The translations under genes were made by a program, and so were the position numbers. Shown here piece by piece: positions 3,552 to 61,326 of a stretch of 64,000 bases of DNA (the stretch's first letter is position 1; each line of letters begins with the position of its first letter). This stretch comes from Deroplatys truncata (lineage: Eukaryota; Arthropoda; Insecta; Mantodea; Mantidae). The notes under the pieces are model-generated. The model made no database searches, was not told where the DNA came from, and was given only the letters and a program-made list of their open reading frames with translations. The DNA lies in the NCBI GenBank assembly GCA_030765065.1, contig CM060982.1:15249630-15313629 (forward strand). Reading direction: 5' to 3'.

Positions 3552-3553
3552 TA

Positions 3554-16995: not shown

Positions 16996-17105
16996 CGTTA
17001 TAATTTTTCTTTACATAGCCGCTAAGGCACCAAAACGTATTTTGAATCTAAACTCATGGGCATAAATCCGTAAGACATTTTGCTGCGATACTTTGAGGGT
17101 TCAAG

Positions 17106-20083
17106 CAGGACCCTCTGGATAATGGACCTGACACTGACATTCAAAATGGCGGCCGTATGTGGTGGGAATTTGGGAAATGCCTTAATCAGTTTTTGTGCTC
17201 AAGTTATGACTTCTCACAGTAAAATACAATTAATGTGGTGCAGTGACATGTCTTTTGTGTAGATAAAACGCTGTGCACAAAAACGCTGTCTTTAAAGTAA
17301 ACTAAATGCATTTTAACATTAAATGAAATATGTAACCTCAAACAACATTCATGCAGTCTACAGTTTTGCATGCTATAACTTAACAGCCTTTCTAAACTAC
17401 AGCTACTTATTTAAATTACAAAGGACATAGTTTTATAAACTGCAAGCACTGTAATACTTGCATGAAACACAACTGTTGATATTCAGATTGACACTGATTA
17501 AGAGTTCACTCAAAATTACGTGTCACTGTTTACACTGTTTATCACACTGTACTCAATATATATGCACAAAATATACACTGGATGACACCAAATGGCGTTG
17601 TTTACAGTAGGTAATTATCTATTAAATTTAGAAGCTTTAGGGTTACTTTTGCTTTCACTGAACGCTTTTCATTTATAAGTATGCAATAATTATTCAAAAC
17701 TATACCACTTAGCGACTTATAGCGTCCTTTACTAGTTTCTGCAGAGAGTCCACACCGACAGACTGAAATATAAGTAGCCTTAAACCAGCACTGCAAGTGA
17801 AATATATGAAGTACATAACCTTAAACAGCATTGCAAAACAACATTCATGCAGTCTACAGTATTGCATGCAACAACGTAACAGCATAAATACGATGGCTGA
17901 ATTAAAATAAACTGTCAGAAATGCACCATTCTGCAGTTTAACCACTTTCTTGGAACCGTTATAAAAGAACCACCCTAACGGAATTTATCCTTTCTTATAA
18001 CTAAGTCGGAAACAACGATGTATGCATACAGGTGAATCCTTCGAAGGCGTCAAGTGTTTACGATTTATGTATATTAACTGTTTTCTTTTAAATCTTTATA
18101 TTCTGGAAATATGAATGACAATACTCCGATATAAGATAATAACTGGGACTCACTATACACATACACACTCAAATACTCATAATTGTTTTATTGTATCTCA
18201 CAAATACACATAACTTAATATATTTTATAATTTAAATTAACACTGTATATAGCATATTTTAAATATTTATCACAATTATTTGCACCTCTATTCATTATAA
18301 TCAAAGTTCGATTTACATCCGGAAACATAATGGTGTTGTATGTTTTAGGTTAAGTATATTTACAACTATAACGTCCAAACTGTAACGATTTCTTTATTTC
18401 ATTCCAGTAACCGTGACACAAACTATATTCTCCGACATTATGCTCTAGTTGTGTCCCGCACAGCAGGACCCTCTAGAAACAACGGACCTGACACTGGGTT
18501 CGAGATTGAGAAAAATGGCGGCGGTAATTGGTGGTGATCCCTGAGGTGTTTACACTCGCTAACTGCTCGTGCTGTGTTTCCGATGCCTGTGATTTATAGT
18601 ATTTTAGCAACTGCGGCAGTTTGTAATCACATTAGCGAAGAAATAGTATTTGAAAACCTTTATTTGAACAATTTGGGAAACGGGAATAGTCCCAGTCATG
18701 CGTTTTCAGTGCCGTGTGCTTTCCAAGTGTTAGTTATGTTTGCTAATACATTACATGTAAATTATGGCTACATTAAATGTAAAGTATAATTATACATTTT
18801 GTAATTTATCTACTTGAGAATATAGTTTGTGTCACGGTTACTGTGGTGAAATAAAGAAATTGTTACAGTTTGGACGTTATAGTTGTAAATATACTTAACC
18901 TAAAACATTACAACGCCATTACGTTTCCGGGTGTAAATCGAACTTTGATTATAATGAATAGAGATGCAAATAATTGTGATAAATATTTTAAAATATGCTA
19001 TATGCAGTGTTAATTTGATTTATAAAATATATTAAATTTATGTATATTTGTGAGATACAATAAAACATGAGTATTTGAGTGTGTATGTGTATAGTGAGTC
19101 CCAGTTATTCTCATATACCGGAGTAGTGCCATTCATATTTCCAAAATATATTTACAGTTAACATACATAAATCCGTTGTTTCCGACTTAGTTATAGGAAA
19201 GGATAAATTCCGTTACGGTGGTTCTTTTATAACGGTTCCAAGAAAGTGGTTAAACTGCAGAATCGTGCATTTCTGACTGTTTTAATTCAGCCATCGTATT
19301 TATGCTGTTACGTTGTTGCATGCAATACTGTAGACTGCATGAATGTTGTTTTGCAATGCTGTTTAAGGTTATGTATTTCATATATTTCACTTGCAGTGCT
19401 GGTTTAAGACTACTTATTTGTTATATTTCAGTCAGTCGGTGTGGACTCTGCAAAAACTAGTAAAGGATGCTATAAGTTGCTAAGTGGTATAGTTTCGAAT
19501 AATTATTGCAAACTTATAAATGAAAATCGTTCAGTGAAAGCAAAAGTAACCCTAAAGCTTCTAAATTTAATAGCTAATTACTGTAAACAACGCCATTTCG
19601 TGCCATCCAGTGTATATTTTGTGCATATAATATTGGGTACAGTGTGATTAACAGTGTAAATAATGACACGTAATTTTGAGTGAACTCAATCAGTGTTAAC
19701 CTCAATATCAACAGTTCTGTTTCATGCAAGTATTACAGTGTTTGCAGTTTATAAGACCATGTCCTTTGTAGTTTAAATAAGTAGCCGTAGTTTAGAAATG
19801 CTGTTAAGTTATTACATACAAAACTGTAGACTGCATGAATGTTGTTTGAGGTTACATATTTCATTTAATGTTAAAATGCATTTCGTTTACTTAAAAGACA
19901 GCGTTTTTGTGCACAACAGCATATATTTACACAAAAGATATGTCACTGCACCACATTAATTGTATTTACTGTGGAGAAGTCATAACTTGTAGACAAGAAC
20001 TGATTAAGGCATTTCCCAAATTCCCACCACAAACGGCCGCCATTTTGAATGTCAGTGTCAGGTCCGTTATCCAGAGGGTCCTG
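17106..20083. repeat. Large inverted repeat (foldback-like), arms about 1.3 kb
   Basis: The left arm 17106-18440 and the right arm 18816-20083 are reverse complements over nearly their whole length. Both outer ends read CAGGACCCTCTGGATAA into GGACCTGACACTGACATTC and AAAATGGCGGCCG (right end complemented). Inner ends pair at ACCGTGACACAAACTATATT/AATATAGTTTGTGTCACGGT. Arms differ by scattered substitutions and small indels. A spacer of about 375 bases separates them. No open frame across the arms has a recognisable domain. Flanking target duplications were not found. Confidence 0.9.
18441..18815 (+). repeat. Spacer of the inverted repeat with a third terminal copy
   Basis: After the left arm's CTCTAGTTGTGTCCCG the terminal sequence CAGGACCCTCTAGAAACAAC starts again (18464), runs through AAAATGGCGGCGG, then passes at about 18533 into TGATCCCTGAGGTGTTTACA. 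From that point to about 18815 it matches the complement of 21270-21570. It therefore looks like an internally deleted relative captured between the arms. Confidence 0.75.
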
Positions 20084-20214
20084 CGCACAGCGATGACGAT
20101 GATGTATATTTCCAACAGATGTCACTCTATGTCAGACGCTTGACTAATACAATACTGTCAAAATATGAATAATTGATGCCACCAAAGCGCCGCAACTACG
20201 ACCACAGGGCGTAG

Positions 20215-20472
20215 CCAAGGGATGTTATATAACCTTAGGTTTATGAATTCACGGAAAATTAGGTTTACGTTACGTGTTTTTTATTTATATAACCTTGCGT
20301 TTCTGAATTCACGGAGGTTTAGGTTACTTTTCTTTTAATATAAGCTTAGGCTTCTGATTTACTTTTATACATATAACCTTATTTAAATTTGTTACCAGTG
20401 GTTACATAAAAGCACGCGAGCGAAGCGAGCGTGCGTTCTTAAGCTTACGTTTCTGGTTCACGGGAGGTTAGG

Positions 20473-20521
<49 letters not shown>

Positions 20522-20830
20522 CTTGTTTTAATTAGTTACCAGTGGTTACATCAAAGCACGCTAACTTCGCTCGCGTGCGTTCCTAAGCTTACGTTTCTGG
20601 TTCACGGAGGTTAGGTTAGGTTTAGTTTTTTTTATATATATATATTGTTTTAATTAGTTACCAGTGGTTACATTAAAGCACGCGAGCGTGCTTTCCTAAG
20701 CTTACGTTTCTGGTTCACGGGAGGTTAGGTTAGGATTACTTCTTTTTATGTAAGCTTACGTTTCTGAATTCAGGGAAGGTTAGCCTTAGGTTAGGGTTTT
20801 TTTTATGTAAGCTTTCGTTAACTATCTACC
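20215..20830 (-). repeat. Short CCTAA/HindIII tandem units of element Z
   Basis: Several diverged units contain AAGCTTACGTTTCTG, GGAGGTTAGG and three GC-rich segments (CACGCGAGCGAAGCGAGCGT, a mutated form, and a shortened CACGCGAGCGTGC). A (TA)n tract lies at 20476-20519. These are the minus-strand counterparts of the array at 38997-41690. Confidence 0.85.
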
Positions 20831-20907
20831 ACTGTTACGGTAAAGCAACTTCTTTATTACACTGTTATTACAATGGAAATAACCTCTTAATAAAATATAC
20901 TTTGACA

Positions 20908-21001
20908 AAAACTATTACAAACTTAAAACTTTGGTGCATATTCTTTTGCTGCTTAAAAACTATTACAAACTTAAAACTTTGGTGCATATTCTTTTGCTGC
21001 T
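20908..21001. repeat. 47-bp tandem duplication
   Basis: AAAACTATTACAAACTTAAA and the following bases, up to TTTTGCTGCTT, occur twice in perfect succession. Identity implies a recent duplication. Confidence 0.93.
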
Positions 21002-21255
21002 TTCAATTAGCGCATGGTGCAGCCAGTCTTTGAATGCGTTACGTTCTCAGCGGGAATAACACACGAAGAAAAACAAGAAGAAACACTACTAACAGCGCAT
21101 CGCATTTCTGGTGGATTTTCATTTAGGTTGGCGGTTCCCACTATACATCTTCAACGAAAAAATGGCTACGTTTGTTTTGTTTCGTACGCGATTCGCCTAT
21201 ATAAGTAAAACACCGTCGAGGGGCGGGTAGGTGAGCACAAACTATTGAACAGCTA

Positions 21256-21570
21256 CTTCGACGGGACACAACTAGAGTATAATTGCCATATTCTCAAATA
21301 TATAAATTAAAAAATGTATAATTATACTTTACATTTAATGTAGCCATAATCTACATGTAGGTAATATATTAGTAAACATAAGTAACACTTGAAAACACTG
21401 AAAACGCATGACTGAGATTATTCCCGCTTGATTGCTCAAATAAAGGTTTACAAACACTATTGCTTCGCTAATGTGATTACAAACTGCCGCAGTTACTAAA
21501 ATACTATAAATCACAGGCATCGGAAACACAGCACAGCAGTTAACGAGTGTAAACACCTCAGGGATCACCT
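21256..21570 (-). repeat. Inverted copy of the foldback spacer
   Basis: The minus strand from 21570 reads GATCCCTGAGGTGTTTACAC to CTCTAGTTGTGTCCCG at 21258 and matches 18533-18815 plus the left-arm inner end 18441-18458. The junction GGTGATCCCTGAGG is shared with the spacer, where different sequence precedes it. Here it directly follows the last THAP-gene exon and supplies its stop codon. Confidence 0.8.
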
Positions 21571-26355: not shown

Positions 26356-27687
26356 CGAGGCGTATTCCAAAACTAAGGTCCGTTTGATCATAATAAAAAC
26401 ATCACTCATGGGACAAGGATTTTATTGCAGTAATATGTGCCTACATATATGCTTTACTTTTCCACATAATCGCCGTCCACATCTATACACTTGCTGTAAC
26501 GCTGTACCAGCTTCTTTAACCCCTCGACATAGAAGTCCGCCGCCTGGGACTTGAACCAGTTTGTAACGCTCGTCCTGAGTTCATCATCGCTTTGAAATCG
26601 TCGTCTACGCAGCCACCGTTTCAAATGCAAGAAGAGAAAATAGTCGCGTGGTGCCAGGTCGGGACTGTACGGAGGGTGGTCAATAAGTTCCCAAAGAAAC
26701 TCTTAAATCTTCTCTTTGGTTTTGGCAGCGGTGTGCGGATGTGCGTTGTCGTGCAGGAGGATGATGCCAGATGACAGTTTCCCGCGGCGTCGATTTTGGA
26801 TCACACATCTCAGTTTGGTAAGCGTTGCACAGTACACATCAGCTGTAATTGTTGACACACGGTCCGTGAAATCAATAAAAAAAGACGTCCTTTTCGTCCA
26901 AAAACACAGTAGTCATCATTTTGTGATTCGTGTACGACGATTGCTTACACCTTTCGGTTTGGGTGAACCGGAACGGCTCCACTACATTAACTGATGTTTC
27001 GATATTACGTTGGTGTACGCTGTCCAGTCTCGTCGCCCGTAACAGTATGGGAAAACAAATCATCTCCATCTCATCTATAGCACTCCAAAAACTGCCGTGC
27101 ACTACGCATTCGTTGCTCTTTGTGTTGACCGGTGAGCAGTTTTGGCACCCACCTCGCACAAAGTTTCCGATATCCAAGCTGTTCAATGATAATTCTGTAA
27201 AGTGAGGTTCGAGCAACATTTGGGAATTCGTCAGCCAGACCACTAATCGTCAAACGCCGATCACTTCGAACGTTTTGGTTCACTCGCTCAACGATATCGT
27301 CGTTCCGAATACTGGGCCTACAGCTTCTTTGTTCACCGTGCACATTTGTGCGGCCATTTCGAAATTCTCGACACCAGTGTTCAACCTGTTTGTCACTCAT
27401 GATGTCCGGTCCATACACGAGACATAACTCACGATGGATGTGCTCAGTTGATGATCCTTTTGCCAGCAAAAATCTAATCACACAGCGCACTTCACAACTG
27501 GCGGGATCTATGATTGTCGCAGCCATTGCGATCTGCTCTCATCGACTGGCAAACGCCTACTGTGTCACGGCAACACTGCGGTAGGTTCCTTAGGAGTCGG
27601 TAGACAGCGCTGCAGGCGTGAAGCGTCATTCAGGCCTACCATCCGTTAAATATTGTTCACCGGACCTTAGTTTTGGAATACGCCTCG
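26356..27687 (-). mobile_element. mariner transposon inserted in the Merlin transposase
   Basis: Perfect inverted repeats of 27 bases, beginning CGAGGCGTATTCCAAAAC, lie at 26356-26382 and 27661-27687. Length is 1332 bp, normal for mariner. The right flank has TA (27688-27689); the left flank is TG, so one target base seems mutated. The element carries one transposase on the minus strand. Confidence 0.9.
26454..27526 (-). pseudogene. mariner transposase, frameshifted
   Basis: It opens at 27526 with MAATIIDPASCEVRCVIRFL, and a 151-codon uninterrupted part covers the two helix-turn-helix domains (QVEHWCREFRNGR, ISGLADEFPNVARTSLYRII, WVPKLLTGQHK). Beyond about 27070 it shifts frame several times, but the motifs remain: TGDET (first Asp), HDNAHPHTAAKT (second Asp) and YSPDLAPRDYFLF (third Asp). 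The spacing is that of the D,D34D mariner triad. A stop follows TKEKI. It is inactive as read. Confidence 0.88.
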
Positions 27688-37035: not shown

Positions 37036-37110
37036 TATTTTTTATATATATATATAACCTAGCGCTAAACTTCCGTGAATTCAGAAACCTAAGCTTATTT
37101 AACTAGTGGG
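37036..37110 (+). repeat. Isolated unit related to the 54-bp satellite
   Basis: TATATATATAACCTAGCGCT leads into AACTTCCGTGAATTCAGAAA and CCTAAGCTTATTTAA, a single diverged unit outside the main array. Confidence 0.7.
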
Positions 37111-38020
37111 ACAAAATTCCGTACATAAAGGATGACCTAAGATGCATAATACTCAAGGAATTGATTCACTGTAGATGTCTCGAATAATCCGTGATGCCTA
37201 CCCACTCCAACTGGTGTCTTGTTTATATAGGCGAATTTGGCGATATTTCGATGCAGGTTCTGGAAACAACAGGTACTTTATCGAAGTACTGCAGAGAATG
37301 TGTGCAAATGTAGGGAACAGGGCCGTATTTAGAAGGGGCGGTTTAGGGTTCAACCCCCCCCCCCAAAAAAAGCTTCTGACGGCTTTATCTATTTAAATTC
37401 ATATCAAACCAATATGGGAAAATGTCGTTAGATAACAGTAGGTCTACTGCTAGTAGCTCATTTACAAGAAAAAGGGAAACATAAGTAAGGTGACCATACA
37501 TCCTGGTTTTCGAAGCAGTCTTGATGTTTTGTGCTGTAAGGTAGAATATCTTCATTCTGGTGAGCTTTTCCTGCCTCTATAATGTCTCCAAGCAATTTTC
37601 TTATCTACGTAACGTCTATTTACTATGGAGTAGGTACATGATAACTGTGTGGGGCACTGTTAAGCTTAGATCTAGTTATAGAAAACCCTCCACGAAATTT
37701 TTTTATGGGTTCGGGCATGGTAGGGAAATGAGGGTAGAAAACACGGAAAAGTTTGGTGTAAGTTTCAATAACCTCAAGCTGACTTTGAAAGTTACAAAAT
37801 AGACTGCAACGGTGTGAGCACCAATTATTAGCGTTCACTCGAAAGTTTTGGTAAAAGGGGGATAAATTAGCGGAAGTATTAATGCAACACGGTGTACTCC
37901 GAAGAGCAATTCGTTGCGAAAGATATGGAAACCAGGCTGATATGAGGACATGGAGGAACGGTTCTTATTTCTACTGCGGACACATCTTGAAGCATCGTTA
38001 AAGACTTCTCGTGAATCAGA
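37111..38020. other. Anonymous sequence with a possible hAT-like end
   Basis: CAGGGCCGTATTTAGAAGGG at 37318, followed by a poly-C tract, resembles ends of some hAT-type MITEs; no partner was found. Otherwise nothing is recognised. Confidence 0.35.
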
Positions 38021-38420
38021 AACCAAAGCTTAAATAAGTAGTGAATCATAAACCTCGCTAAGGTAGCGAGCGAACCGAGCGTGCATTGTGTAACCACTGG
38101 TTAATTAACCTACACTTATATTTAAAAAATCTAAACCTAACCTCCCGTGAATCAGAAATCAAAACTTAAATAAGTAATGAGTCAAACCTCGTTAAGGAAA
38201 TCACGCCCGCTTCGCTTGCGTGCTTTGGCGTAACCATGGTTAAATTAAGCTTATATTAAAAAAAACTAAACTTAACCTAACCTCCCGCGAATCAGATACC
38301 AAAGCTCAAATAAGTAGTGAATCATAAACCTCGTTAAAGAGCGAACCGAGCATGCATTGGTGTAACCACTGGTTAATTAACCTAAGCGTTTATTAAAAAA
38401 AACTAAACTTATTTAATTAC
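38020..38420 (+). repeat. Three diverged satellite-related units of about 125 bp
   Basis: Each unit has GTGAATCAGAAACC-type sequence, AAGCTTAAATAAGTAGTGAA, an AGCGAGCGAACCGAGCGTGC-type GC segment (one reads CACGCCCGCTTCGCTTGCGT), GTAACCACTGGTTAA and AACCTAACCTCCCG. They share all modules with the 38997-41690 array but in a different spacing. Confidence 0.8.
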
Positions 38421-38996
38421 TATGATACCTTTTTGAACAGCTTCTCTGACAAATGATGCCTAACATCAATAAGGTTGGTACGATTATTTTCCTTTTCATT
38501 AGAAATAAATGGATGTTTTGTTGGATCACAGAATCTGTAAATGTATCCACTTCAATTTAGCACAGCTTTGGCTATGGTTTTCGGCTAATATTATGTTATA
38601 GTGTGCCCGTAGAAAATGCTTATAAAATCAAAAGGAAAGCGAATAAATTACCTTAAGAGTGAGCTTAGAACACGATGTGGTCTCGTCTATAGCTGGTGCC
38701 CAACTGCCCGCCCGTTTAAGGTATTTTACTTATATAGGAAAATCGCGTCAGGAACTAAACAAACGTAGCCATTTTGCAAAAAATTACATGCAAATTCGGT
38801 ACTGCCAACGTAAATAAAAATGTGAAATCGGCTAAAAATGCGATGCGCCGTTGTTACCGCCATTTGTTGTTGTTGTTCTGCGATTTTGTTGAAACGCAAC
38901 GCGTGCAAATTAACAGTGCGTATTTAATATAAAGCAAAATGGTTTGCACGGGATGTGAGAATACTGTCTTTAGCATTCTAACTCAACACGTGCTAT

Positions 38997-40603
38997 GCTT
39001 ATATAAAAAAAAACTAACCTAAACCTAACTTTTCGTGAATTGAGAAACGTAAGCTTATATAAAAAAACTAACCCTAAATCTAACCTTTCGTGAATTCAGA
39101 AACGTAAGCTTATATAAAAAAACTAACCTAAACCTAACCTTCCGTGAATCCATAAATGTAAGCTTATATAAAAAAACTAACCTAAACCTAGCCTTTCATG
39201 AATTCAGAAACGTAAGCTTATATAAAAAACCAACCTTTAGTGAATTCAAACGTAAGCTTATATAAAAAAACCTAACCTAAACCTAATCTTCCGTGAATCC
39301 ATAAACGTAAGCTTATATATAAAAAACCTAAACCTAACCTCCCGTGAATTAGAAACGTAAGCTTAGGAACGCACGCTCGCTTCGCTCGCGTGCTTTGATG
39401 TAAGCAATGGTGACAAATTAAAACAAGGATATATATATAAAAAAACTAACCTAAACCTAACCTTAATCTTTCGTGAATTCAGAAACATAAGCTTATATAA
39501 AAAAACTAACCTAAACCTAACCTTTCGTGAATTCAGAAACGTAAGCTTATATAAAAAAACTAACCTAAACCTAACCTTTCGTGAATTCAGAAACATAAGC
39601 TTATATAAAAAAAACTAACCTAAACCTAACCTTCCGTGAATCCATAAATGTAAGCTTATATAAAAAAAACTAACCTAAACCTAACCTTTCATGAATTCAG
39701 AAACGTAAGCTTATATAAAAAAACCAACCTTTAGTGAATTCAAACGTAAGCTTATATAAAAAAACCTAACCTAAACCTTACCTTCCGTGAATCCATAAAC
39801 GTAAGCTTATATAAAAAAAACTAAACCTAACCTCCCGTGAATTAGAAACGTAAGCTTAGGAACGCACGCTCGCTTCGCTCGCGTGCTTTTATGTAACCAA
39901 TGGTAACAAATTAAAACAAGGATATATATATATAAAAAACTAACCTAAACCTAACCTTAATCTTTCGTGAATTCAGAAACATAAGCTTATATAAAAAAAC
40001 TAACCTAAACCTAACCTTTCGTGAATTCAGAAACGTAAGCTTATATAAAAAAACTAACCTAAACCTAACCTTTCGTGAATTCAGAAACATAAGCTTATAT
40101 AAAAAAAAACTAACCTAAACCTAACCTTCCGTGAATCCATAAATGTAAGCTTATATAAAAAAAACTAACCTAAACCTAACCTTTCGTGAATTCAGAAACG
40201 TAAGCTTATATAAAAAAACTAACCTAAACCTAACCTTTCGTGAATTCAGAAACATAAGCTTATATAAAAAAAACTAACCTAAACCTAACCTTCCGTGAAT
40301 CCATAAATGTAAGCTTATATAAAAAAAACTAACCTAAACCTAACCTTTCATGAATTCAGAAACGTAAGCTTATATAAAAAAACCAACCTTTAGTGAATTC
40401 GAACGTAAGCTTATATAAAAAAAGCCTAACCTAAACCTAACCTAAACCTTCCGTGAATCCATAAACGTAAGCTTATATAAAAAAAACTAAACCTAAACTC
40501 CCGTGAATTAGAAACGTAAGCTTAGGAACGCACGCTCGCTTCGCTCGCGTGCTTTGATGTAACCAATGGTAACAAATTAAAACAAGGATATATATATATA
40601 TAC

Positions 40604-40651
<48 letters not shown>

Positions 40652-41690
40652 GTAATTCAGAAACCTATGCTTATATAAAAAAACTAACCTAAACCTAACC
40701 TTAACCTTTCGTGAATTCAGAAACATAAGCTTATATAAAAAAACTAACCTAAACCTAACCTTTCGTGAATTCAGAAACGTAAGCTTATATAAAAAAACTA
40801 ACCTAAACCTAACCTTTCGTGAATTCAGAAACATAAGCTTATATAAAAAAACTAACCTAAACCTAACCTTCCGTGAATCCATTAACGTAAGCTGATATAA
40901 AAAAACTAAACCTAACCTTACCTAATCTCCCGTGAATCAGAAACGTAAGTTTAGGAACGCACGCTCGCTTCGCTCGCGTGCTTTGATGTAAGCTTTGGTA
41001 AAAAATTAAAACAAGGATATATATAAAGGTAATTCAGAAGCCTATGGTTATATAAAAAAACTAACCTAAACCTAACCTTTCGTCAATTCAGAAACGTAAG
41101 CTTATATAAAAAAACTAACCTAAACCTAATCTTTCCTGAATTCAGAAACGTAAGCTTATATAAAAAAAACTAAACCTAACCTCCCGTGAATCAGAAACGT
41201 AAGTTTAGGAACGCACGCTCGCTTCGCTCGCGTGCTTTTATGTAAACAGTGATAACAAATTAAAACAAGGATATATATAAATGTAATTCAGAAACCTATG
41301 GTTATATAAAAAAAACTAACCTAAACCTAACCTTTCGTGAATTCAGAAACGTAAGCTTATATAAAAAAAACTAACCTAAACCTAACCTTTCCTGAATTCA
41401 GAAACGTAAGCTTATATAAAAAAACTAACCTAAACCTGACCTTTCCTGAATTCAGAAACGTAAGCTTATATAAAAAAAACTAACCTAAACTTAACCTTTC
41501 GTGAATTCAGAAACGTAAGCTTATATAAAAAAACTAACCTAACCTTTCGTGAATTCAGAAACGTAAGCTTATATAAAAAAAACTAACCTAAACCTAACCT
41601 TTCGTGAATTCAGAAACGTAAGCTTATATAAAAAAAACTAACCTAAACCTAACCTTTCGAAAGCTTGCATAAATAAAAAATCTTATGTAA
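38997..41690 (+). repeat. 54-bp satellite with CCTAA-rich tract and HindIII/EcoRI sites
   Basis: The unit reads GAATTCAGAAACGTAAGCTT, ATATAAAAAAACTAACCTAA, ACCTAACCTTTCGT. About 40 units follow one another, 45-57 bases each, differing mostly in A-run length and in variants (CCGTGAATCCATAAACG, CCAACCTTTAGTGAATTC). Five times a GC-rich block GCACGCTCGCTTCGCTCGCG interrupts the units (after 39366, 39859, 40525, 40953, 41208), each followed by AACAAATTAAAACAAGGATA and a short TA run. This gives higher-order blocks of about 493, 666, 428 and 255 bases. Frames across it encode a KVRFRLVFLYK repeat only because 54 is divisible by three. Confidence 0.95.
40590..40650. repeat. (TA)n tract forming a palindrome
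   Basis: TA repeats interrupted by CCTT, then continuing to AAGG, so TATATACCTTTATATA and TATATATAAAGGTA can pair. Confidence 0.85.
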
Positions 41691-41924
41691 GCGTAACCTT
41701 CCGTTAATTCATAAAGCACAGGTTGTCTAAGATCCCTGGGCTACACTCTGTGGTCGTTTCCGCATTCGCGGCATTAATTTTCGTTTTGGCGGCATTAATT
41801 TGTTATATGTTGGCAGCATAAACATATGACATACGTGACATGTATTGAGCTAGTGCATGGCATAGTGTGACATCTGTTGGACAATATAACACATCATATT
41901 CATCGCCGTGGGGCACACTGTAAG

Positions 41925-42765
41925 ATGATATTGTCCTGGTTTTCTGTCTAGGGTAGAAAAATTCAGTTAATCACTTGCAATAAACGTTCTTCCCGATTTT
42001 TAAATGTTTTTTTCATGTTCTTGAAATACTGGGCAACATTACATTTCATGAGCCTTACCTCTGAGTGACTCACCGCAAACACAAAAAGACTTTGAAGGCT
42101 GACAATTCATTTTTCTGGACACTTTTAACTTGTATTGAAAAGCAAGATGACATTAAAATAACGCACATTTGCCACTGTACTGGACTGCTGAATGCAGGTG
42201 AGGAGGGAACCATGTCATGTGATATGCTGGTGGTGAGGAAGGGAGAAAGCTCTGGTCATGTATGTGCACACCACACCTAGTTTGCTCATGGTCTATCTAT
42301 AGTTGCAAAAAATGTTGATATGATTTCATAACTTGTATTATACAGTGAACAAATCGAATATTTGCTTAAAATTAATTTCATATTAGTTCTGAAATTTGAA
42401 ATTCTTTTATTTGTGCATAAATTTCACCTTGTATATTTGTATCCTTAAGATTGTGGTTTACAAAGAGATATCTATATAATAAATTCTCCCCTGTTAATGT
42501 TAATGATATATTATATGTTCATTTGACCACTTGAGTTGTTCTTTGAAATGAATAATACATGTCTGGCAGAAATAAAATGTCTAAGGCTTAGACTGCATAA
42601 ATGAATTCTATAGGTACAGCTATTCTTGCTCTAAATATTGCCTATAGAAATGATTCTAAAGTTTATATGTACACCACTATAACATTCAAAGTGGATATAA
42701 AGCAGTGCTTGTAAACTACTCATATATGGATGCAAAGCCCTTGAACCATATCCTTATACAATTCC
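41925..42765. other. Anonymous AT-rich sequence
   Basis: A 71-codon open stretch at 42065-42280 contains several Cys and His but no spacing that I recognise. No splice context decides it. Otherwise nothing. Confidence 0.35.
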
Positions 42766-51807: not shown

Positions 51808-52837
51808 TGATGCAGTAATTTGTATCATAAATTATTTAAATGTAAAGAATGATTATAGTATGAATATGCATTTTTGTGTGACATTGATTTGAGATGTTTG
51901 TTGATTGTAATTATTGTTGAGAAGTAAGTTTATACGGCCTTACTGAAACTGACAATAATAGCGTGCAATAATGCAGCGTGGGGGTGAGCTGTTTATCATT
52001 ATTAGAGACGAGGAAGTTACGTAATATTGGCGCGTTTTTCTTTAGAATTTGCTGGAACATTTTCCCTAGAGCATATGTGTTCATAATTTTCATTGCATAT
52101 AAAAATAGACGCTAATGTTGGCGCGTTTTATTAGCCAATAGCAGTTCAGTTATAATCTTTAGGCATATCGGGGTGTAGGAGTATAAAAAGGGCTAGGTTA
52201 GAGGTAAAGTCCATCAGTCCGTCAGTTCGTCGAAAACATTTGTACGTTACACGTCGCCTTCAGTCCAGCAGAAATATTTGTACAGTACACGTCGGCTATC
52301 GATTCGCAGGTTACGCGTAGCAGAGTTATGAAAAATCTCAAGTGTTGTAAAGTTAATCACACAAAAAGTTGAAGTACGCGAATTAAGAATGATCAGTAAA
52401 TAAGTTATTATAACAGTTACAGTTTGGCGAGTGTCAAGATCAAAGTGTAAATGTGATAGTGAATGTGTTCGACAATAAAAAGTGTAAAACAAATTCCCTC
52501 ATCAGTGTTATCTTTAGATAAATGACTCCTTTCCGTTTACACAACCTGTATAAAGAGAAGTGCTCGACCAAAAGGATAATAGCTAGCCGGAGGACAGTGA
52601 ACCAAAATTAAATAAAATAACAGTAGCATTCTTTCAAACAAACACTAATACTGCTGCAAATTGCTAACACCAGATGGAGCTAACAAACCTAACAAAGAAT
52701 CACGTCACAAAATGGCTTCACCACGTGGAGTAAATACAAATACACAAACATTATAAATAATACCGTCGCAAATTGGCTCCCAAACGTGGGGCTCAATAAA
52801 CAAATTAAATAAATAACTTAACAAATATACCACCCCA
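51808..52837 (+). repeat. 5' LTR of G1
   Basis: Contains a TATA box (GTATAAAAAGGGC, about 52181), an initiator-like TCAGTCCGTCAG downstream, and AATAAAAAGTG at about 52473 as a likely polyadenylation signal. Near its end, AATTGGCTCCCAAACGTGGGG (about 52777) resembles the primer-binding site although it lies inside the LTR. Confidence 0.9.
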
Positions 52838-53280
52838 AATTGGCACCCAGAACGTGGGGCAGAATGACCAGGAAAGGAGCAGAATGACCAGGAAGGAGCA
52901 GAATAACCAGGAAGGAGCAGAATAACCAGCAAGGGGCGAAGGAACTAGGACGTGGAACGAATGGAGCAGTGAACTGAACTACAAGACGCAGATTCCAGAA
53001 ACAACTACAGGGACGACGGACTACGCGGATGAGTGGACATCGTAATTCCAAGATTACAAGGCAACAGGGGAATTCAACTACAGGACACCAAGACGACGTA
53101 GATTCATCATAATACGACGCAGAAGCGACATATAAATCTAGGAGAGAGGGGCAGAAAGCTGGACATCAAAGCAACATCAGCAGATAGCATCAAAAAGGTT
53201 AGAAAAGTGTGATTTTTATTCTAAAAAAAAGTGTAAAAATTTAAATGTACCTTAGGAGCGGTAGGATAAAGAAAACTATG

Positions 53281-54587
53281 TCCACTAATAATACAGAAGG
53301 AACCATAATGGAAGGGGCTAGTGTAACAGTTAGCTGTAATTCAATACAGGTTACCGAAAATAGCTCAAACAATGTAGTATTTGAGGGAGGAAATGTTAGT
53401 TGAGAAAGTGAGAATAGAACAGCAGGAAATGTAAATTTTGATGCTAGTATAATGATGGAAATGCTGAGAAATATGAATGAGAAATTAGAACAAAAATTAA
53501 CTCAGAATATGGAGAAGAATAATGAGAAATTAGAAAAATTAACTCAGAGTAATGAGAAATTAGAAAAGAAAATAGATCAAAACAGGGAAGATATGGAAAA
53601 GAATAATAGGGAATTGAGGGAAGATATTAGTAAGAGTATTACAGATCAATTAAGGGAAGAAATTGGTAAGAGTAATGAGAAATTAGAGCATAAATTAGAT
53701 CAAAATAGGGAAGAAATTGAAAAGAAATTCATGGAGATAGATAGTAGTATGATGAGAATGAGAAATGAAAATCAGGAAATGGTAGCAAATGAGATAGGGG
53801 AAGTTTTAAAGAGAATGTTAGACATGAGCAGGGAAATATCTAACCAAAAAAGTGAGGTTAATAATAAAATACAACATGTTGATGTAAAATGTACAGAGTT
53901 AGGTAGCCGAATGAGTAGCATTTCAAGTGAGTTAAGAGAGATGATGGAGGCTACAAATGCAGATTTAATTCAGGTGCAAGTTAATTTCAGAGGGGAAATA
54001 TCTGAAATTCAGAAGGAGCCAGAAACACAGAGAAATAAATTGTCTGAAGAAGTTAAAGACTTGTCTAAAGATTTGAATCAAAAGCTAACTTCTGAAATTA
54101 ACAAACACCAAGTTGTTCAAAATGAGAATAATAAAAAATTGGAACAGACAATAGAAAATCTGCAAGGTACTGTAAATAGGTTAGAATTGAATTCAGTGGT
54201 AAATATATGTGATGTGAATGTATCTGATGTTCAAAATAATGATAGAGGTAGTTCCTCAGTATGACAAATAATGTGAGTGATGCGGCAGCTTCATCTATAG
54301 CTAATGCTGAAACTCAGAGTGCACAAGTAACACTAGAGAATTTAAATATGGGAGTAGGGAATTTGCAAAATTACAATCATATCTTAAGTGATTTTCCACT
54401 TCCAAAATTTAATGAAAACTCCAGTCCAGTACAGTTTATTGCAGAATTATCAGAATATTTTCAAATTAAAAAGATACCTGAAGCATTGAAAATGATAGTT
54501 GTCAAACGATGTGTTGTTCAGGAAACTTTAGATTGTTTTCAAATGTTATCAGGGGACGAAATATCATATGAATCCTTTAAGAGGTGA
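53281..54587 (+). pseudogene. Gag-like coiled-coil protein of G1, interrupted
   Basis: A first ATG near 53279 starts MSTNNTEGTIMEGASVTVSC and meets TGA at 53401. The 270-codon main part (53452-54264) is almost wholly charged coiled coil, with repeated NEKLEKKIDQNREDMEKNN-type heptads. After a stop at 54262-54264 a -1 frame (54261-54587) carries the Gag-like core: LPKFNENSSPVQFIAELSEY, LKMIVVKRCVVQETLDCFQM, FKR. That core resembles the capsid N-terminal region of insect gypsy-type Gag proteins. There is no CCHC zinc knuckle. The overlap at 54261 could be decay or programmed shifting; the intact single frame in G2 argues for decay. Confidence 0.7.
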
Positions 54588-55395
54588 TTCATGAACAAAA
54601 TTTGGAAGGTTAGGTGCAGCTACGAGTAATGTTTAGCCACACACAATTTGATCCAGGAGGGTGAATAGCAATGAGATGTAAAGTAAATGCTGGATAGTTA
54701 AAGATGACCTGCAGAGCAATGTATTGGAATGTAAGAGGGTTAACTATTTATATATGTCATAGGTAAAGAGAAGTAAATTATATAAAAAAAAATAAATGTT
54801 TAAAAAAAAAATAACATTTTTTTAGTAACTGTAACAGCATTGGAAATGAAGCATGTAATAATTAAAACTTAATGTTATACTAAAGTAAAAGTACATAGAT
54901 ATAATTCCAAGAGTAGTGTGAATATAAAGTACAAAACAACAAAAATGGGGTACAAATAATTAAAAACAAATACTTATGTAGCAAACAGAAAATGTGAAAC
55001 ACTGTCTAGATTTAAGAGATGTAAATATATTTGTGTAGAGGGTAAATATTTTTGGTAAATATGTTTAATAATTACAAAAATTCTTGAATGCATAAATTTT
55101 TGTCAACAATATAAGAGAGTAAACTAATTTTGTAACAGTAAATAAATAATTCAAGGTACAGTATTTGCTATAAAAAAAATATGTAATGTCAGATTAATTT
55201 CTAAACACATTAAACCAGAGCCAGTCAATAGTGGCAAGAAAAAGGTAAAACATATGTCGTGTGTTTAAATACGTGTGAAGTGTTAAGTGAAAGTGATAAA
55301 TAGCGTGTGTTCCAAGATTTAGGAGACTAAAAACCCAATTATAAAATTTCCAAACAAGTTGTAAATATTTATAATTATGTTTCTAGTGGGGCATA

Positions 55396-56423
55396 TGATT
55401 CAGTAATTTGTATCATGAATTATTTAAATGTAAAGAATGATTATAGTATGAATATGCATTTTTGTGTGACATTGATTTGAGATGTTTGTTGATTGTAATT
55501 ATTGTTGAGAAGTAAGTTTATACGGCCTTACTGAAACTGACAATAATAGCGTGCAATAATGCAGCGTGGGGGTGAGCTGTTTATCATTATTAGAGACGAG
55601 GAAGTTACGTAATATTGGCGCGTTTTTCTTTAGTATTTGCTGGAACATTTTCCCTAGAGCATATGTGTTCATAATTTTCATTGGATATAAAAATAGACGC
55701 TAATGTTGGCGCGTTTTATTAGCCAATAGCAGTTCAGTTATAATCTTTAGGCATATCGGGGTGTAGGAGTATAAAAAGGGCTAGGTTAGAGGTAAAGTCC
55801 ATCAGTCCGTCAGTTCGTCGAAAACATTTGTATGTTACACGTCGCCTTCAGTCCAGCAGAAATATTTGTACAGTACACGTCGGCTATCGATTCGCAGGTT
55901 ACCGTAGCAGAGTTATGAAAAATCTCAAGTGTTGTAAAGTTAATCACACAAAAAGTTGAAGTACGCGAATTAAGAATGATCAGTAAATAAGTTATTATAA
56001 CAGTTTCAGTTTGGCGAGTGTCAAGATCAAAGTGTAAATGTGATAGTGAATGTGTGCGACAATAAAAAGTGTAAAACAAATTCCCTCATCATTGTTATCT
56101 TTAGATAAATGACTCCTTTCCGTTTACACAACCTGTATAAAGAGAAGTGCTCGACCAAAAGGATAATAGCTAGCCGGAGGACAGTGAACCAAAATTAAAT
56201 AAAATAACAGTAGCATTCTTTCAAACAAACACTAATACTGCTGCAAATTGCTAACACCAGATGGAGCTAACAAACCTAACAAAGAATCACGTCACAAAAT
56301 GGCTTCACCACGTGGAGTAAATACAAATACACAAACATTATAAATAATACCGTCACAAATTGGCTCCCAAACGTGGGGCTCAATAAACAATAAATAAATA
56401 AACATTACAAGTATACCACTTCA
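55396..56423 (+). repeat. 3' LTR of G1
   Basis: Nearly identical to 51808-52837. Visible differences include GGTTACGCGTAGC/GGTTACCGTAGC and CATTGCATAT/CATTGGATAT, and a diverged last 40 bases. Confidence 0.9.
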
Positions 56424-56505
56424 AGCTAAACCACTATTTCTTGATTCACCATATATAAGGTGATATCTGCAAGTTCAGGGAAGGTGTACATGTTCTCCAT
56501 GTTGT
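56424..56505 (-). pseudogene. N-terminus of the mariner-like transposase split by G1
   Basis: On the minus strand an ATG at 56500 gives MENMYTFPELADI. A shift then gives YGESRNSGLA, the N-terminal YGEA motif of this group, ending at the AGCT target duplication. The frame continues at 51807 on the other side of the LTR element. Confidence 0.72.
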
Positions 56506-56509
56506 CTCA

Positions 56510-57940
56510 CAGACAATCCTTAGCAAACCTCAGGGAGCCGAATCAAGGAAATGATAGTGGTGTCATTGCAATGGCCATCAGAATCGCATCCTGAGTATAT
56601 ATATTGAATTTAAAAAAAATTAACTGTATGATAGAAAACAAACCTATGGCCTTCAGGACATCAGTTTTTGGCATTACTCATTAAGCCACATGAGCAGTTA
56701 AAGAGTAGGCTCCATAATGCAAGAAGGTAGGTAGTTGATGTTCGGTGTCACATTGTCAAGTGATTAGTTCAAGATTTGAGAGATTTTTGTGGCATTAAAT
56801 CTTGAAAATGCTGATAACAAGCTGCTGAAAATTGATATTTCTATATTCGTGCAGCGTTTTAAAGACATTCTAAGCCAATTTTTCTTCTAGATTTGCTTTA
56901 CCATTAACTTATCAGCATCTGATACCAATGTATTTAAAACGTTGTAACTGTGTTATGTTTAGCGGTGTGGACCATGCATTGCCTATCTCAAATTGTTTAT
57001 ATCAGATACATCTATAATCTCTGAAATTATTTAGGTGCAGTTAATTACTACCCTCTAAAGGAGCAATATACCATGAGTATATAATATTGCATTATTAAAA
57101 ATGAAACTATAAATTAAGTACAATACATACATAGTAACTGATACATTTATATTTAAATATAGGATGCAAAACCAAAAATCACTATGACATCTTGAAGTAT
57201 GTGACAATATATCAGTCATGATCTCTTTCTGGCTACATGCATTTAGCAACATATCTTATGTATATACTAGAAACTCTGCATACCTATTTCATTTCATATT
57301 CTAGAGTTTGAGTATATGATTGCACATCACTCAGAAATATATAAACAATATAATGCACAATTAAATTAATACAATTTTCAAAATAGAAAAAGCAAAATGA
57401 CATCTCTCTAACTGTTCATAATTCATTATTGACCACTGTTTTTCAGATCCTTTGCGTTTTTCTGTATAGCTCTTCTAGCACATCCTTAAAACATTCCTTT
57501 TCACCTTCTGGAATTTTGAAAAACCTCATTAGATTTTAAATATCTTTTACTTTACTTGAAAGATAATCTGTCTTTTGAAGCTTACAGTGCAAATCCCCAG
57601 TACATGTCCATTATTTTCTTTGCTTTATTTGATAGTTTGCTTTATCTTTGCAGACTCTCTCTTCACCACCCTATGTTTAGAGATGATATACTTATGCACC
57701 TCAAAAGAAAACTGATCTTGGTCTATATCCTTTTATCATTTTTCTTTTTATTGCTTCATTTGTATCAGACCCTTTAACTTCTAAGGTAATATCAGGGGCT
57801 TTGACTTAAGAAACAACCTATGATGGTTTTACTTGCTGAACTGTAGGTTTTTTAGCATTGGCTTTTATTACATTTTACTCTTAAACACACTCACTCCCAA
57901 ACATATACTCTGCATAGGAAAGGAAATGATTCTGGTTAAA
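56510..57940. other. Anonymous AT-rich sequence
   Basis: No gene or repeat family recognised. Open stretches are short and without motifs. Confidence 0.35.
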
Positions 57941-57989
57941 GAAAAATTCCCTGCTCCAACCAGGAATCAAATTCGGGACCTCTTGGTTG
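57940..57989 (-). mobile_element. tRNA-like fragment at the G2 insertion site
   Basis: The minus strand reads CCAAGAGGTCCCGAATTTGA TTCCTGGTTGG, a B-box-containing half of a tRNA-like SINE cut by the LTR element. Confidence 0.45.
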
Positions 57990-58974
57990 TGATACGGTAA
58001 TTTGTATCATAAATTACTCAAATGTAAATAATTATTTTAATATGAATATGTATTTTTATGTAACATTGATTTCAGAGGTTTAATAATTGTAATTATTATT
58101 GGTAAATAATAATATACGGCTCTACTGAAACTGTTAACAATAACGCAATACTGCAGCAAGGGGATGAGTTGTTTATCGTTACCGGGAACCAGGAAGTTAC
58201 GTAATGTTTCGCGCCTTTTCAGTAAAAAAGCTTCCAGAATGTTCTCTAAAAGTAATATGTATTAGTGGTTTTCATTGGATAGTAAAATAGACGCTAATGT
58301 TGGCGCGTTTTATTAGCCAATAGCATTTCATTTATAATCTTTAGGTGTATCTTGAGGTAAGCGCATAAATAGCCAGGCTCGAAGTCGGTCGCCCCGCAGT
58401 TATACAAAATTCTCCGTACACTCCACGTCGATCCCGTAGTTCAACAAGATTCTTAGTACACTACACGTCGGCCGCTCAGTTCATCAAAATTTCGTGTACA
58501 CTACACATCGTCAGCCAGTCCTTCATTTCGTCAAGTTACACGAGAATTATTATAAAATATTATACAGTTAAATACACACAAAGTCGAAGTACGTGATTTA
58601 AAAGTGAGAAGTTATTACAAACAGTTTCAGTTTGGGCGAGTATTCAGATTAATATGTAAATGTGTTAGTGCACGTGTTCGACAATAAAACATTATAAAAC
58701 ACATTTCTTCACTAGTAATTTTTGGATAAAAGATTCCTTTCCGCTTCACAACCTGTAAGAAAAACATGCCTACCAAGATCAGATGATAGCTAGCCGGTGG
58801 ACATTTAAAACTGATACAAATTGCTACGCCAGAGGAATCTACAAACAGAACAAATGAACCAACCAACGTATGAAGTCACACAAGATGGCTTCGCGTGAGG
58901 TAAACACATATTTGCTCTCGTAAATTGGCTTCCACAACGTGGTGCTATAAACACGTAAAATTGTTATACTCGCA
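57990..58974 (+). repeat. 5' LTR of G2
   Basis: Has CATAAATAGCC (about 58363) as TATA-like box and GACAATAAAACATTATAAAA (about 58680) as polyadenylation region. It shares with G1 the block TGTTGGCGCGTTTTATTAGC CAATAGCA, possibly a promoter element. A primer-site-like AATTGGCTTCCACAACGTGG lies inside the LTR at about 58923. Confidence 0.9.
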
Positions 58975-59403
58975 AATTGGCACCCATAACGTGGGGCGAA
59001 GTGACCAGGAAAGGAATAAGATGACCAGGACGTGGGGCGAAGATGACCAGGAAAGGAAGGCGAAGCGACCAGGAAAGGAACTCGAGTAACCAGGAAAGGA
59101 TCAGAAATAACCAAGAAGAATTGAGAGGACCAAAGGAGGAATGCAGCGGTGAAATCATCTACAAGACCCAGATTCAAGAAACAACAGGAACAACAGACTT
59201 CGATCGTAATTCCGAGATTACGAGGCAACAGGGAATTCAACGCAAAAGCATCGAAACGACGTAGATTCATCACAACACAACGCAGAAGCGACATCAAATC
59301 TAGGAGAATGGGGCAGAACGCTGGACATCAAAGTAACAGCAATGGACAGCATAAGTAAGGTTAGAAAATCTCAATTTTTTTGTTAAAAAAAAAAAGCAAA
59401 TAA

Positions 59404-60477
59404 ATGTTAATGAGGAGCGGTAGGATAATAAAAACAATGGCTACCAATAATACAGAAGAAATAATTATGGAGGGAGATAGTGTAACAGTTAGCTGTGATC
59501 CAATACAAAGTACAGGAAATAGCCCAGATTTTTTGGGGTTTGAAGATGAAAATGTTAGTGCAGAAAGTGAGAGTAGAATAGCAGGAAATGTTAATCTTGA
59601 TACTATTGTGATGATGGAAATGCTGAGAAATATGAGTAGGGAATTAAGGGAAGATATGCAAAAGAATAATGAGAAAATGAGGGAAGATATGCAAAAGAGT
59701 TATGAGAAATTAGGACAAAAATTAACTCAGAGTATAAGGGAAGAAATTTGTAAGAATAATGAGAAATTAGAAAAGAAAATAGATCAAAACAGGGAAGATA
59801 TGCAAAAGAGTTATAGGAAATCAATTGAAAATATTGGTAGGAGTAATGATATATTAGAGCAAAAAGTAGATCAAAGCAGTGAAGAAAGTGAAAAGAAAGT
59901 TACGAAGCTAGATAGTAGTATGCCAGAAATGAGAGATAAAAATGAGGAAGTAATAGTAAGTAAGATAGGAGAAATTTCAAAGAAAATGCTAGACATGAGC
60001 AAGGAAATAGATAACAAAGAAAGTGAGGTTAATACTAAAAGTGAGGTTAATGTAGAATGTACAGAGTTAGGAAGTCAAATGAGTAGTATTTCAAGTGAAC
60101 TAAGAGAGATAAATGAGGTTAGGAATGTAGATGTAAATGAGGCGCAGGTTAATTTCAGAGGGGAAATATCAGAAATACAGAATGAGACAGTAATGCAAAG
60201 AAATAAATTGTACCAAGATGTTCAGAATGAAAACTCCAGTCCAGTACAGTTTAGTACAGATTTGTCAGAGTACTTTCAAAGTAAAAAGATAGCAGATGAA
60301 TTGAAAATGACAGTTGTTAAAAGATGTATTGTTCAAGAAACTGTAGATTGTTCTCAAATGTTATCAGGGAACGAAATGTCATATGAATACAAGAGGTCAT
60401 TCATGAACAATAATTTGAAGGTTAGGTTACGGCTACGAGTAATGTTTAGCCACACACAATTTGATCCAGGAGGGTAA
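59404..60477 (+). CDS. Gag-like coiled-coil protein of G2, intact
   Basis: 357 codons from ATG 59404 (a second ATG at 59437 aligns with the G1 start). An acidic N-terminus (ATNNTEEIIMEGDSVTVSC) is followed by long charged coiled coil over residues about 75-275 with repeated REDMQKNNEKM/LEKKIDQNREDMQK heptads. A Gag core follows (NENSSPVQFSTDLSEYFQ, LKMTVVKRCIVQETVDCSQM), then LRLRVMFSHTQFDPGG. Compared with G1, the segment between the coiled coil and the core is missing. No zinc knuckle, protease or polymerase follows. It presumably forms particles or joins those of an autonomous partner; that is inference. Confidence 0.8.
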   Translation: MLMRSGRIIKTMATNNTEEIIMEGDSVTVSCDPIQSTGNSPDFLGFEDENVSAESESRIAGNVNLDTIVMMEMLRNMSRELREDMQKNNEKMREDMQKSYEKLGQKLTQSIREEICKNNEKLEKKIDQNREDMQKSYRKSIENIGRSNDILEQKVDQSSEESEKKVTKLDSSMPEMRDKNEEVIVSKIGEISKKMLDMSKEIDNKESEVNTKSEVNVECTELGSQMSSISSELREINEVRNVDVNEAQVNFRGEISEIQNETVMQRNKLYQDVQNENSSPVQFSTDLSEYFQSKKIADELKMTVVKRCIVQETVDCSQMLSGNEMSYEYKRSFMNNNLKVRLRLRVMFSHTQFDPGG

Positions 60478-61326
60478 ATAGCAATGTGATGTAAAGTAAA
60501 TGCTGGATAGTTAAAGACGACTTGCAGAGAAATGTATTGGAACGTAAGAGGGTTAACTATATATATATATATCATTTGAAAAGAGAAATAAATGATAAAA
60601 TAAAAAAAAAAAAAGAGAAATGTTTAAAAAAAATGAATAAATAAATTTTTAGTAACTGTAACAATATTTGAAAAATAAGAATGCAAAGATTGAAACTTAA
60701 GATGATATTAAATTAAAAGTACGTAAATACAATTCAAAAAGTATTGTTAAAATAAAATTCAAAATAACAAAAATGGTAAAAATAATTCAAAACAAATACT
60801 TACGTAGCAAACAGAAAAGGTGAAACATTGTCAAGATTTAAGAGATGTAAATATATTTGCAAAGTACAAAATAACAAAAAAAAATTTGGTAAATATATTT
60901 AAAAATAATTGAAACAAATACTTATGTAGTAAACAGAAAATGTAAACCATTATCTAGATTTAAGAGATGTAAATATTTGTGTTGAGGGTGAATATTTTGG
61001 TAAATATGTATAATAATTACAAAAATCTTAAATGTATAAATTTTTGTCAACAGTTTAAAGTAAACAATTTGGTAGCAGTAAATAGGTAATTTAGGGTAAA
61101 GTATTTGCTATAAAAAAAATTTTGTGATGTCAGATGAATATCTAAATTAATTAAACCAGAGCCAGTAAGTAGTGGCGAGATAAAACATATGTCATGTGTT
61201 AAATGCGTGTGAAGTGTAAAGTGAAAGTGATAGCGTGTGTTCCAAGATTTAGGAGACTAAAAAACACAATTATAAAATTTTCAAACAAGTTATAAGTATT
61301 TATAATTATGTTTCTAGTGGGGCATA
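60478..61326 (+). other. 3' non-coding interior of G2
   Basis: AT-rich sequence with A runs and a local duplication: AATATATTTGCAAAGTACAA-type and AACAAATACTTATGTAG blocks recur (about 60780-60960), absent once in G1. It ends in the purine tract before the 3' LTR. Confidence 0.6.

Follow-up and report, generated by a model that had tools for sequence, protein, structure and literature searches.

The 54-bp tandem array in the stretch of Deroplatys truncata DNA that was analysed here (the window, 64,000 nucleotides) is very probably the interior of a non-autonomous DNA transposon of the Merlin (IS1016/IS1595-like) type and not telomere DNA. The element is bounded by terminal inverted repeats (TIRs) and an 8-bp target-site duplication (TSD), it carries the start of a transposase gene that was cut by a deletion, and the same deletion junction is found exactly in several hundred places in the genome (Table 1).

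The array and the element around it

An earlier note, made from the letters of the window alone, had described a 54-bp satellite with a telomere-like tract and GC-rich near-palindromes. The tandem array is real, with a 54-bp period and larger blocks; TRF called it at 39002-41659 with 49.6 copies, and 44 segment starts were obtained when the array was split at the HindIII-type boundary. With at most two mismatches allowed, the window contains 34 copies of the tract CTAACCTAAACCTAACC, where shuffling predicts 0.01; the array accounts for 32 of these, including 24 exact ones. The tract had been placed in every unit, and most units do contain it, but short units (CCAACCTTTAGTG...) and CTAAACCTAACCT units do not. 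The window element contains 39 HindIII sites and 25 EcoRI sites. The CpG-rich GC segments that had been noted are also present, as five identical copies in the array (expectation 0) at the irregular intervals of 493, 666, 429, and 254 bp, and a unit ending in the CTCCCGTGAAT type precedes each of them.

The window holds further copies of the 54-bp repeat at three places (Table 1), and both array flanks recur in reversed orientation at the 20-kb locus, where 38673-38976 matches 21260-20949 and the sequence from 41699 onward matches that from 20256 downward, with scores of 196 and 170 compared with shuffled maxima of 77 and 85. Since the flanks recur together with the array, the repeated entity extends beyond the array itself. 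When we scanned blindly for GG...CC inverted ends (GG being required by the scan) with an 8-bp TSD, one solution was obtained around the array, 38583-41936. Aligned copies start with GGCTAATATTATCTTATAGTGTGCCC and finish with GGGCACACTGTAAGATGATATTGTCC, and a degenerate array unit in the 3' flank is clear, with none of 200 shuffles scoring as well. The strict scan gave no TIR and TSD pair at locus A, locus C, L072, L073, and L074.

Rfam gave no match at the gathering threshold, and the 26-nt unit pattern had no match in viral contigs. The 23-nt hairpin had one match there, in a GC-rich contig with no array nearby, which we read as chance. At L001, an isolated exact motif, the similarity was limited to 19 nt of the unit and one weak match of 75%, with no array and no flank.

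Table 1. Coordinates of the window element, its parts, and related sequences in the window
Feature	Position	Strand	Evidence
Left 8-bp TSD TGGTTTTC	38575-38582	.	Copy comparison; sole solution of blind scan
Whole non-autonomous Merlin element, 3354 bp	38583-41936	+	21-copy comparison; blind TIR and TSD scan
5' TIR GGCTAATATTATGTTATAGTGTGCCC	38583-38608	+	Copy comparison; blind scan
Merlin transposase ORF start, 18 codons, MVCTGCENTVFSILTQHV, cut by founder deletion	38939-38992	+	5' 410 nt match L063 596-1009, 91.6%
Deletion junction, CTCAACACGTG then CTATGCTTATATAAA	38992-38993	+	304 exact genome copies, control 0; exact in 21/21 complete copies
54-bp tandem array, larger blocks	about 38993-41659	+	TRF, repeat comparison, segment splitting
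GC hairpin 1, S form	39371-39393	+	
GC hairpin 2, S form	39864-39886	+	
GC hairpin 3, S form	40530-40552	+	
GC hairpin 4, S form	40959-40981	+	
GC hairpin 5, S form	41213-41235	+	
Array-free 3' end: degenerate array unit first, 3' TIR (41911-41936) last	41660-41936	+	Copy and shuffle comparison
Right 8-bp TSD TGGTTTTC	41937-41944	.	Copy comparison; blind scan
Older relative, same lineage: remnants of the 5' flank and of the transposase C-terminus, GC-block-bearing array 20225-20819, 3' flank	20080-21260 (limits approximate)	-	No TIR/TSD pair by strict scan
Array unit of the type of the second Merlin family (L068), 52/60 identical	37042-37102	+	Repeat comparison
Relic, 140-bp period, with variants of the GC hairpin; matches L068-type module at 300/368 and window-type array at 285/344	38013-38408	+	TRF, alignment

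Copies in the genome

We searched the window's own assembly (4,289,915,091 bases in 818 contigs) with the 5' flank and obtained 2640 first-look candidates. The best 40 were scored; all were at least 98% identical, and most matches begin no more than a few bases from window position 38583. Twenty-one complete copies were then compared, namely the window element and L039-L058 (ranks 2-21 of this search), a set that over-represents young and well-kept copies as it was chosen by the 5' flank from the top of the ranking. All 21 TIRs begin with GG. The TSD is an exact 8 bp in 12 copies, a 6-bp match in one, and absent in eight, and when each 5' flank was paired with the 3' flanks of the other copies as a control, exact 8-mers appeared in two of 420 pairings. 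Among the copies without a TSD, L045, L053, and L056, together with the pair C14a/C14b, lie within one outer repeat and have shifted or inverted flanks, pointing to TSD loss through rearrangement after insertion in L045, L053, and L056; L043, L044, L047, L048, and L057 stand outside the outer-repeat explanation. One further locus, found through the repeat itself (L002-L008), has a 5' flank of 98.4% identity and has lost its 3' end at the array edge.

The 26-mer across the founder junction occurs 145 + 159 = 304 times in the genome, both strands counted, and its control gave 0. The uncut gene context, with at most two mismatches, was found 41 times genome-wide. One founder deletion thus outnumbers the gene-bearing relatives about seven to one, with the reservation that the mismatch limits of the two counts differ.

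Several local groupings were seen along the way. One outer repeat hosts five copies (L045, L053, L056, L061/L030, and L062/L031) whose flanks are shifted or inverted, and there the Merlin element either spreads as a passenger too or was rearranged. On C1, three founder junctions on the same strand (21058446, 21061580, and 21064700) are 3134 and 3120 bp apart; these may be whole elements in tandem, a step towards a satellite. Thirteen of the 41 transposase-context matches fall in one 3-Mb stretch (C15:105.58-108.73 Mb), on the same strand and with the same two mismatches, perhaps a locally amplified Merlin copy.

Transposase-bearing relatives

The transposase domain PF12762 (DDE_Tnp_IS1595) gave 826 first-look candidates in the genome, of which the best 150 were scored and all 150 exceeded the cut-off; one of 14 control genomes had matches. 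A match beside an array at C1:20.08 Mb, designated L063, has a GG TIR followed by a 324-aa ORF with the domain (E=3.3e-16). The 5' 410 nt of the window element matches L063 596-1009 with 91.6% identity and runs through the first 18 codons. In L063 the end of a nested element, in inverted orientation, interrupts the array at the first unit. L067 alone among the transposase-bearing copies was read over its full length between both TIRs; a TIR, an ORF that has lost its start codon region, a 3' UTR, nine array units, and the 3' TIR follow each other in 2217 bp, and the target duplication, judged by eye, is imperfect by 1 nt. In L066 the 324-aa ORF is open and two GC blocks lie in the array, but the 5' TIR is damaged and another repeat truncates the 3' end. 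In both L066 and L067 the array sits in the 3' UTR. Of 1108 candidates the best 40 were scored; 15 of them, L063 among these, match over the full length with at least 97% identity across the rest of the ORF and the 3' UTR.

The candidate residues EIDES, SDCW, and TIES, which would be those of the putative DDE catalytic motif, are the same by eye in L063, L064, and L066. The dN/dS value between the L063 and L064 ORFs was 0.36, consistent with purifying selection on these two subfamilies, while that between L063 and L066 was 0.89 on 13 changes, too few to interpret. Compared with these transposase-bearing relatives, the window element lacks the gene from codon 19 to the array and is, as judged from this alignment, a deletion derivative of a Merlin transposon. 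We suggest that it would be mobilised in trans by the transposase of full-length relatives, through putative binding of the transposase to the element ends.

In the excerpt of PMC8101967 used here, Merlin elements are recognised by GG ends, 8-bp duplications, and the DDE_Tnp_IS1595 transposase. Our assignment to Merlin was made on these ends, the TSD (8 to 9 bp in the superfamily), and the transposase domain: the GG TIR is found in 21/21 copies, the exact 8-bp TSD in 12/21, and the domain in the transposase-bearing relative L063.

At four loci (L064 at about 1903, L065 at about 3104, L066 at about 2820, and L072 at about 1575, with L066 and L072 counted on the reversed strand) we also observed a repeat that starts near TGATGTGTTACACTC and abuts an A-rich part of a Merlin array or flank. 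It is perhaps another element that prefers such A-runs.

Changes of the array and the hairpin among copies

The terminal flanks of the 21 copies diverge by a mean of 0.6% (5') and 1.7% (3'), and the element length varies from 1198 to 3354 bp with the unit number. Two pairs of copies have common flanking DNA, of 1025 and 585 nt upstream and of 600 nt and more downstream. When the elements of these pairs were compared, C14a and C14b differed by one 203-bp gap in the array and a 1-nt gap with no substitution, and C1a and C1b by three substitutions and gaps of at most 12 bp. Array length would thus shift by gain or loss of whole units, through unequal exchange or replication slippage. We then compared 249 units of 52-57 nt, and the mean difference was 0.0675 within copies and 0.0651 between copies; 488 of 500 label shuffles lay at or below the observed within-copy value. 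Homogenisation within copies, which we had considered, was not seen. Since units are no more alike within than between copies, the unit variants and the block order would have been present already in the founder and carried along by transposition. The CCTAA-like tract would be a part of the old 3' UTR repeat and not captured telomere DNA with a telomeric function.

These results bear on the suggestion that a conserved alternation reflects selection or a copying mechanism acting on blocks. The alternation is explained by descent. Copying stands in the form of transposition of the founder array plus gain and loss of whole units, for which the flank divergence, the C14a/C14b pair, and the unit comparison speak; selection is not shown by these data. 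We also considered an origin of the array unit from the subterminal transposase-binding region and rejected it: the best score was 33 in the 5' subterminal 120 nt, 8 of 200 shuffles were as good, and this was one of eight comparisons.

The 21 copies contain 51 GC blocks found by a pattern that misses strongly altered blocks, and 32 of them have the S form, GCACGC-TCGCTTCGCTC-GCGTGC. The others are seven with a perfect 10-bp stem (loops TTC, AAA, or TTT), nine S forms with one or two changes, and three of other lengths. The hairpin arms in their context occur 612 + 677 = 1289 times genome-wide in both orientations, with a control of 0. By eye, the 100 places listed, all on C1, comprise 65 S forms, 15 exactly reversed I forms (12 if neighbouring places count as one, with a duplicated pair among the 12), five perfect-stem forms, and 15 others that look like S with one to several changes. 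Five isolated GC-block loci picked from these 100 (L070-L074) were all Merlin-related. Seven of the 11 inner positions distinguish S from I, the perfect stem combines half of each, and the variant TAGCTTCGCTC could be a step between S and the perfect stem. When folded with RNA parameters, S, I, and the perfect stem gave -10.1, -12.2, and -18.4 kcal/mol, respectively. We infer that the forms may have arisen by inversion or by arm-templated correction at an extruded hairpin; the CpG-rich hairpin would be copied along with the element and now and then inverted or corrected from one arm to the other, an outcome expected of template switching at a hairpin.

Telomere and satellite explanations

(TTAGG)n telomeres fit an arthropod, and this genome carries pure (CCTAA)n, with 13694 + 14562 occurrences of (CCTAA)8. 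Among the matches listed, a run on C1 starts at 338.618 Mb of 338.633 Mb, 14.8 kb before the right end, and no (CCTAA)8 was listed near the left end; short interstitial pure runs on C1 (26875264, 114255474, 169042858, and 219778931) are far from contig ends. The tract CTAACCTAAACCTAACC resembles this repeat, and the array could be a telomere-derived or telomere-associated satellite in which the tract marks subtelomeric DNA or recruits telomere proteins. We regard this as very improbable. The 304 exact junctions, as far as they were listed on C1-C5, are dispersed along the contigs, and the 89 exact founder junctions listed on the four contigs C1-C4 show no significant end bias: two lie within 1 Mb of a contig end, somewhat above the 0.7 expected (P=0.15), five lie within 5 Mb (3.4 expected, P=0.25), and the relative distance to the contig end is uniform (P=0.29). 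Along the contig their distribution is mildly uneven (P=0.025), perhaps due in part to local duplicates. The last exact junction listed on C1 is at 327.4 Mb, compared with the telomeric run from 338.618 Mb. A sister family has CTAACCTAACGCTAACC in place of the tract, which shows that other parts of the unit are better conserved. The telomere link that the earlier note had raised is thus not supported by the location of the exact junctions on these contigs. An ordinary tandem satellite, dispersed by chance and not a transposon, would share the tandem structure and the higher-order blocks seen here; it is the explanation that we would give almost no credence. Both TIRs, the same junction, and the same flanks are present in 21/21 copies, and 12 have exact TSDs. 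A classical satellite would appear as arrays without transposon ends, whereas TIRs bound all 21 copies, a set retrieved by means of the 5' flank.

A second Merlin family with the same module

The transposase of a second family (L068 and L069) is 44% identical to that of L063 (134/304), and with 11 of 46 fourfold sites identical between L063 and the L068-type gene these sites are saturated. Its short elements, L070 and L071, are bounded by TIRs of another sequence and by exact target duplications, GAGAAAAA and GGAATTTC. Nucleotide comparison of L063/L067 with L068-L071 gave no significant match, the 5' UTR included, except in the ORF, the array, and the degenerate unit at the start of the 3' end. 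The 3' UTR of the second family nevertheless contains the same array, whose unit consensus is identical at 50/54 positions (93%; for single units, 77-89% when gaps are included), and behind it a GC block in which 34 nt are identical. L064 is a closer relative of L063, with 246/321 identical residues in the transposase (76.6%) and 67/94 identical fourfold sites. At the corresponding 3' UTR site it has only degenerate unit sequence (83/104), no GC block, and, by eye, a different 32-bp array. The order of module similarity therefore reverses that of the transposases: the module is closest to the L068 type and the transposase to L064, in a comparison of three families with one to a few copies read in each.

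Module exchange between Merlin families best explains this discordance, as the sequence comparison suggests; we treat it as a lead and not as proof. Near-identity in two saturated families could also come from functional constraint on the array and hairpin, as binding sites for the transposase or a host factor or as a 3' UTR RNA element. The contrast between the well-matched unit and GC block and the 44% identical transposase speaks for this, as does the lack of a significant match in the 5' UTR and in the 3' ends outside the array. In L072, L073, and locus A, which contribute one, one, and two units found with a pattern that favours well-kept ones, the units also seem closer to the window consensus than the flanks are; judging from the 5' flanks, L072-L074 are related to the window element but older, and the units of L074 are not clearly closer. 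Constraint fits poorly with L064, where the unit is less similar and the GC block is missing despite the closer transposase, and with L067, which inserted without a GC block, and L058, which did so with a 15-nt remnant only; the likeness of the unit to the 5' subterminal region is weak, as described above. Since the module order clashes with the transposase order, exchange is favoured over constraint, which we consider rather unlikely; constraint with loss in L064 is a possible alternative. Our tentative proposal, which we put forward at somewhat less than even confidence, is that a portable module, made of the 54-bp array and an invertible CpG hairpin, passed between deeply diverged Merlin families, became the main cargo of the deletion derivatives of both families, and spreads partly independently of the transposase lineage. 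Perhaps a derivative with the module is mobilised more readily or evades silencing.

Other features of the window

Other repeats and gene fragments were observed in the window. A 64-bp tandem array of about 30 copies with 92% matches lies at 480-2397, and a frame-broken reverse transcriptase (RVT_1) and a GIY-YIG piece, both just under the cut-off, lie at 2454-5771 in a layout that we take to be that of a Penelope-like element. An imperfect inverted repeat of about 3 kb (17105-20084), with several arm pairs that are 89-99% complementary, adjoins the older Merlin relative at 20080. The minus strand of 27074-27538 encodes a Mos1-type HTH domain (PF17906, E=1.7e-8), a mariner transposase fragment. 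Long direct repeats about 2.6-3.6 kb and 6 kb apart occupy 51808-61709 and include similar glutamate- and lysine-rich ORFs at 53404-54264 and 59404-60477.

Relation to known systems and meaning

Insect DNA transposons tied to tandem repeats or satellites include terMITEs of termites and Tetris of Drosophila virilis; to our knowledge these are not Merlin elements, and we liken them here by description. In a literature search, a weak test, we found no report on the element or on module sharing among Merlin families. According to the excerpt of PMC8101967, several Merlin families contain tandem repeats, which could spread as proto-satellites. The elements described here agree with that superfamily in the GG start of the TIR, the 8-bp TSD, and the DDE_Tnp_IS1595 transposase; compared with what the excerpt describes, here most of a high-copy non-autonomous element consists of the array (44 segments in the window copy), which carries an invertible CpG hairpin, and the same module occurs in a second, deeply diverged Merlin family. 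Likewise, the review PMC12628747, in the part used here, describes the Xenopus MITEs miDNA4 and Xstir as inverted-repeat elements with internal tandem repeats, of variable copy number in miDNA4. However, miDNA4 belongs to Tc1/mariner and its tandem repeat was proposed to be captured, whereas the array described here is found already in the 3' UTR of relatives that carry a transposase.

What had looked like a telomere-like satellite thus becomes a recently spread transposon family with 304 exact founder junctions. With one founder junction, transposase-bearing relatives, and near-identical copies, the resizing of an array and its transport by a cut-and-paste element can be observed in one system. 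If it is true that the module moves between Merlin families, non-coding repeat cassettes would be tradable among transposons, and the question would become what benefit they bring.
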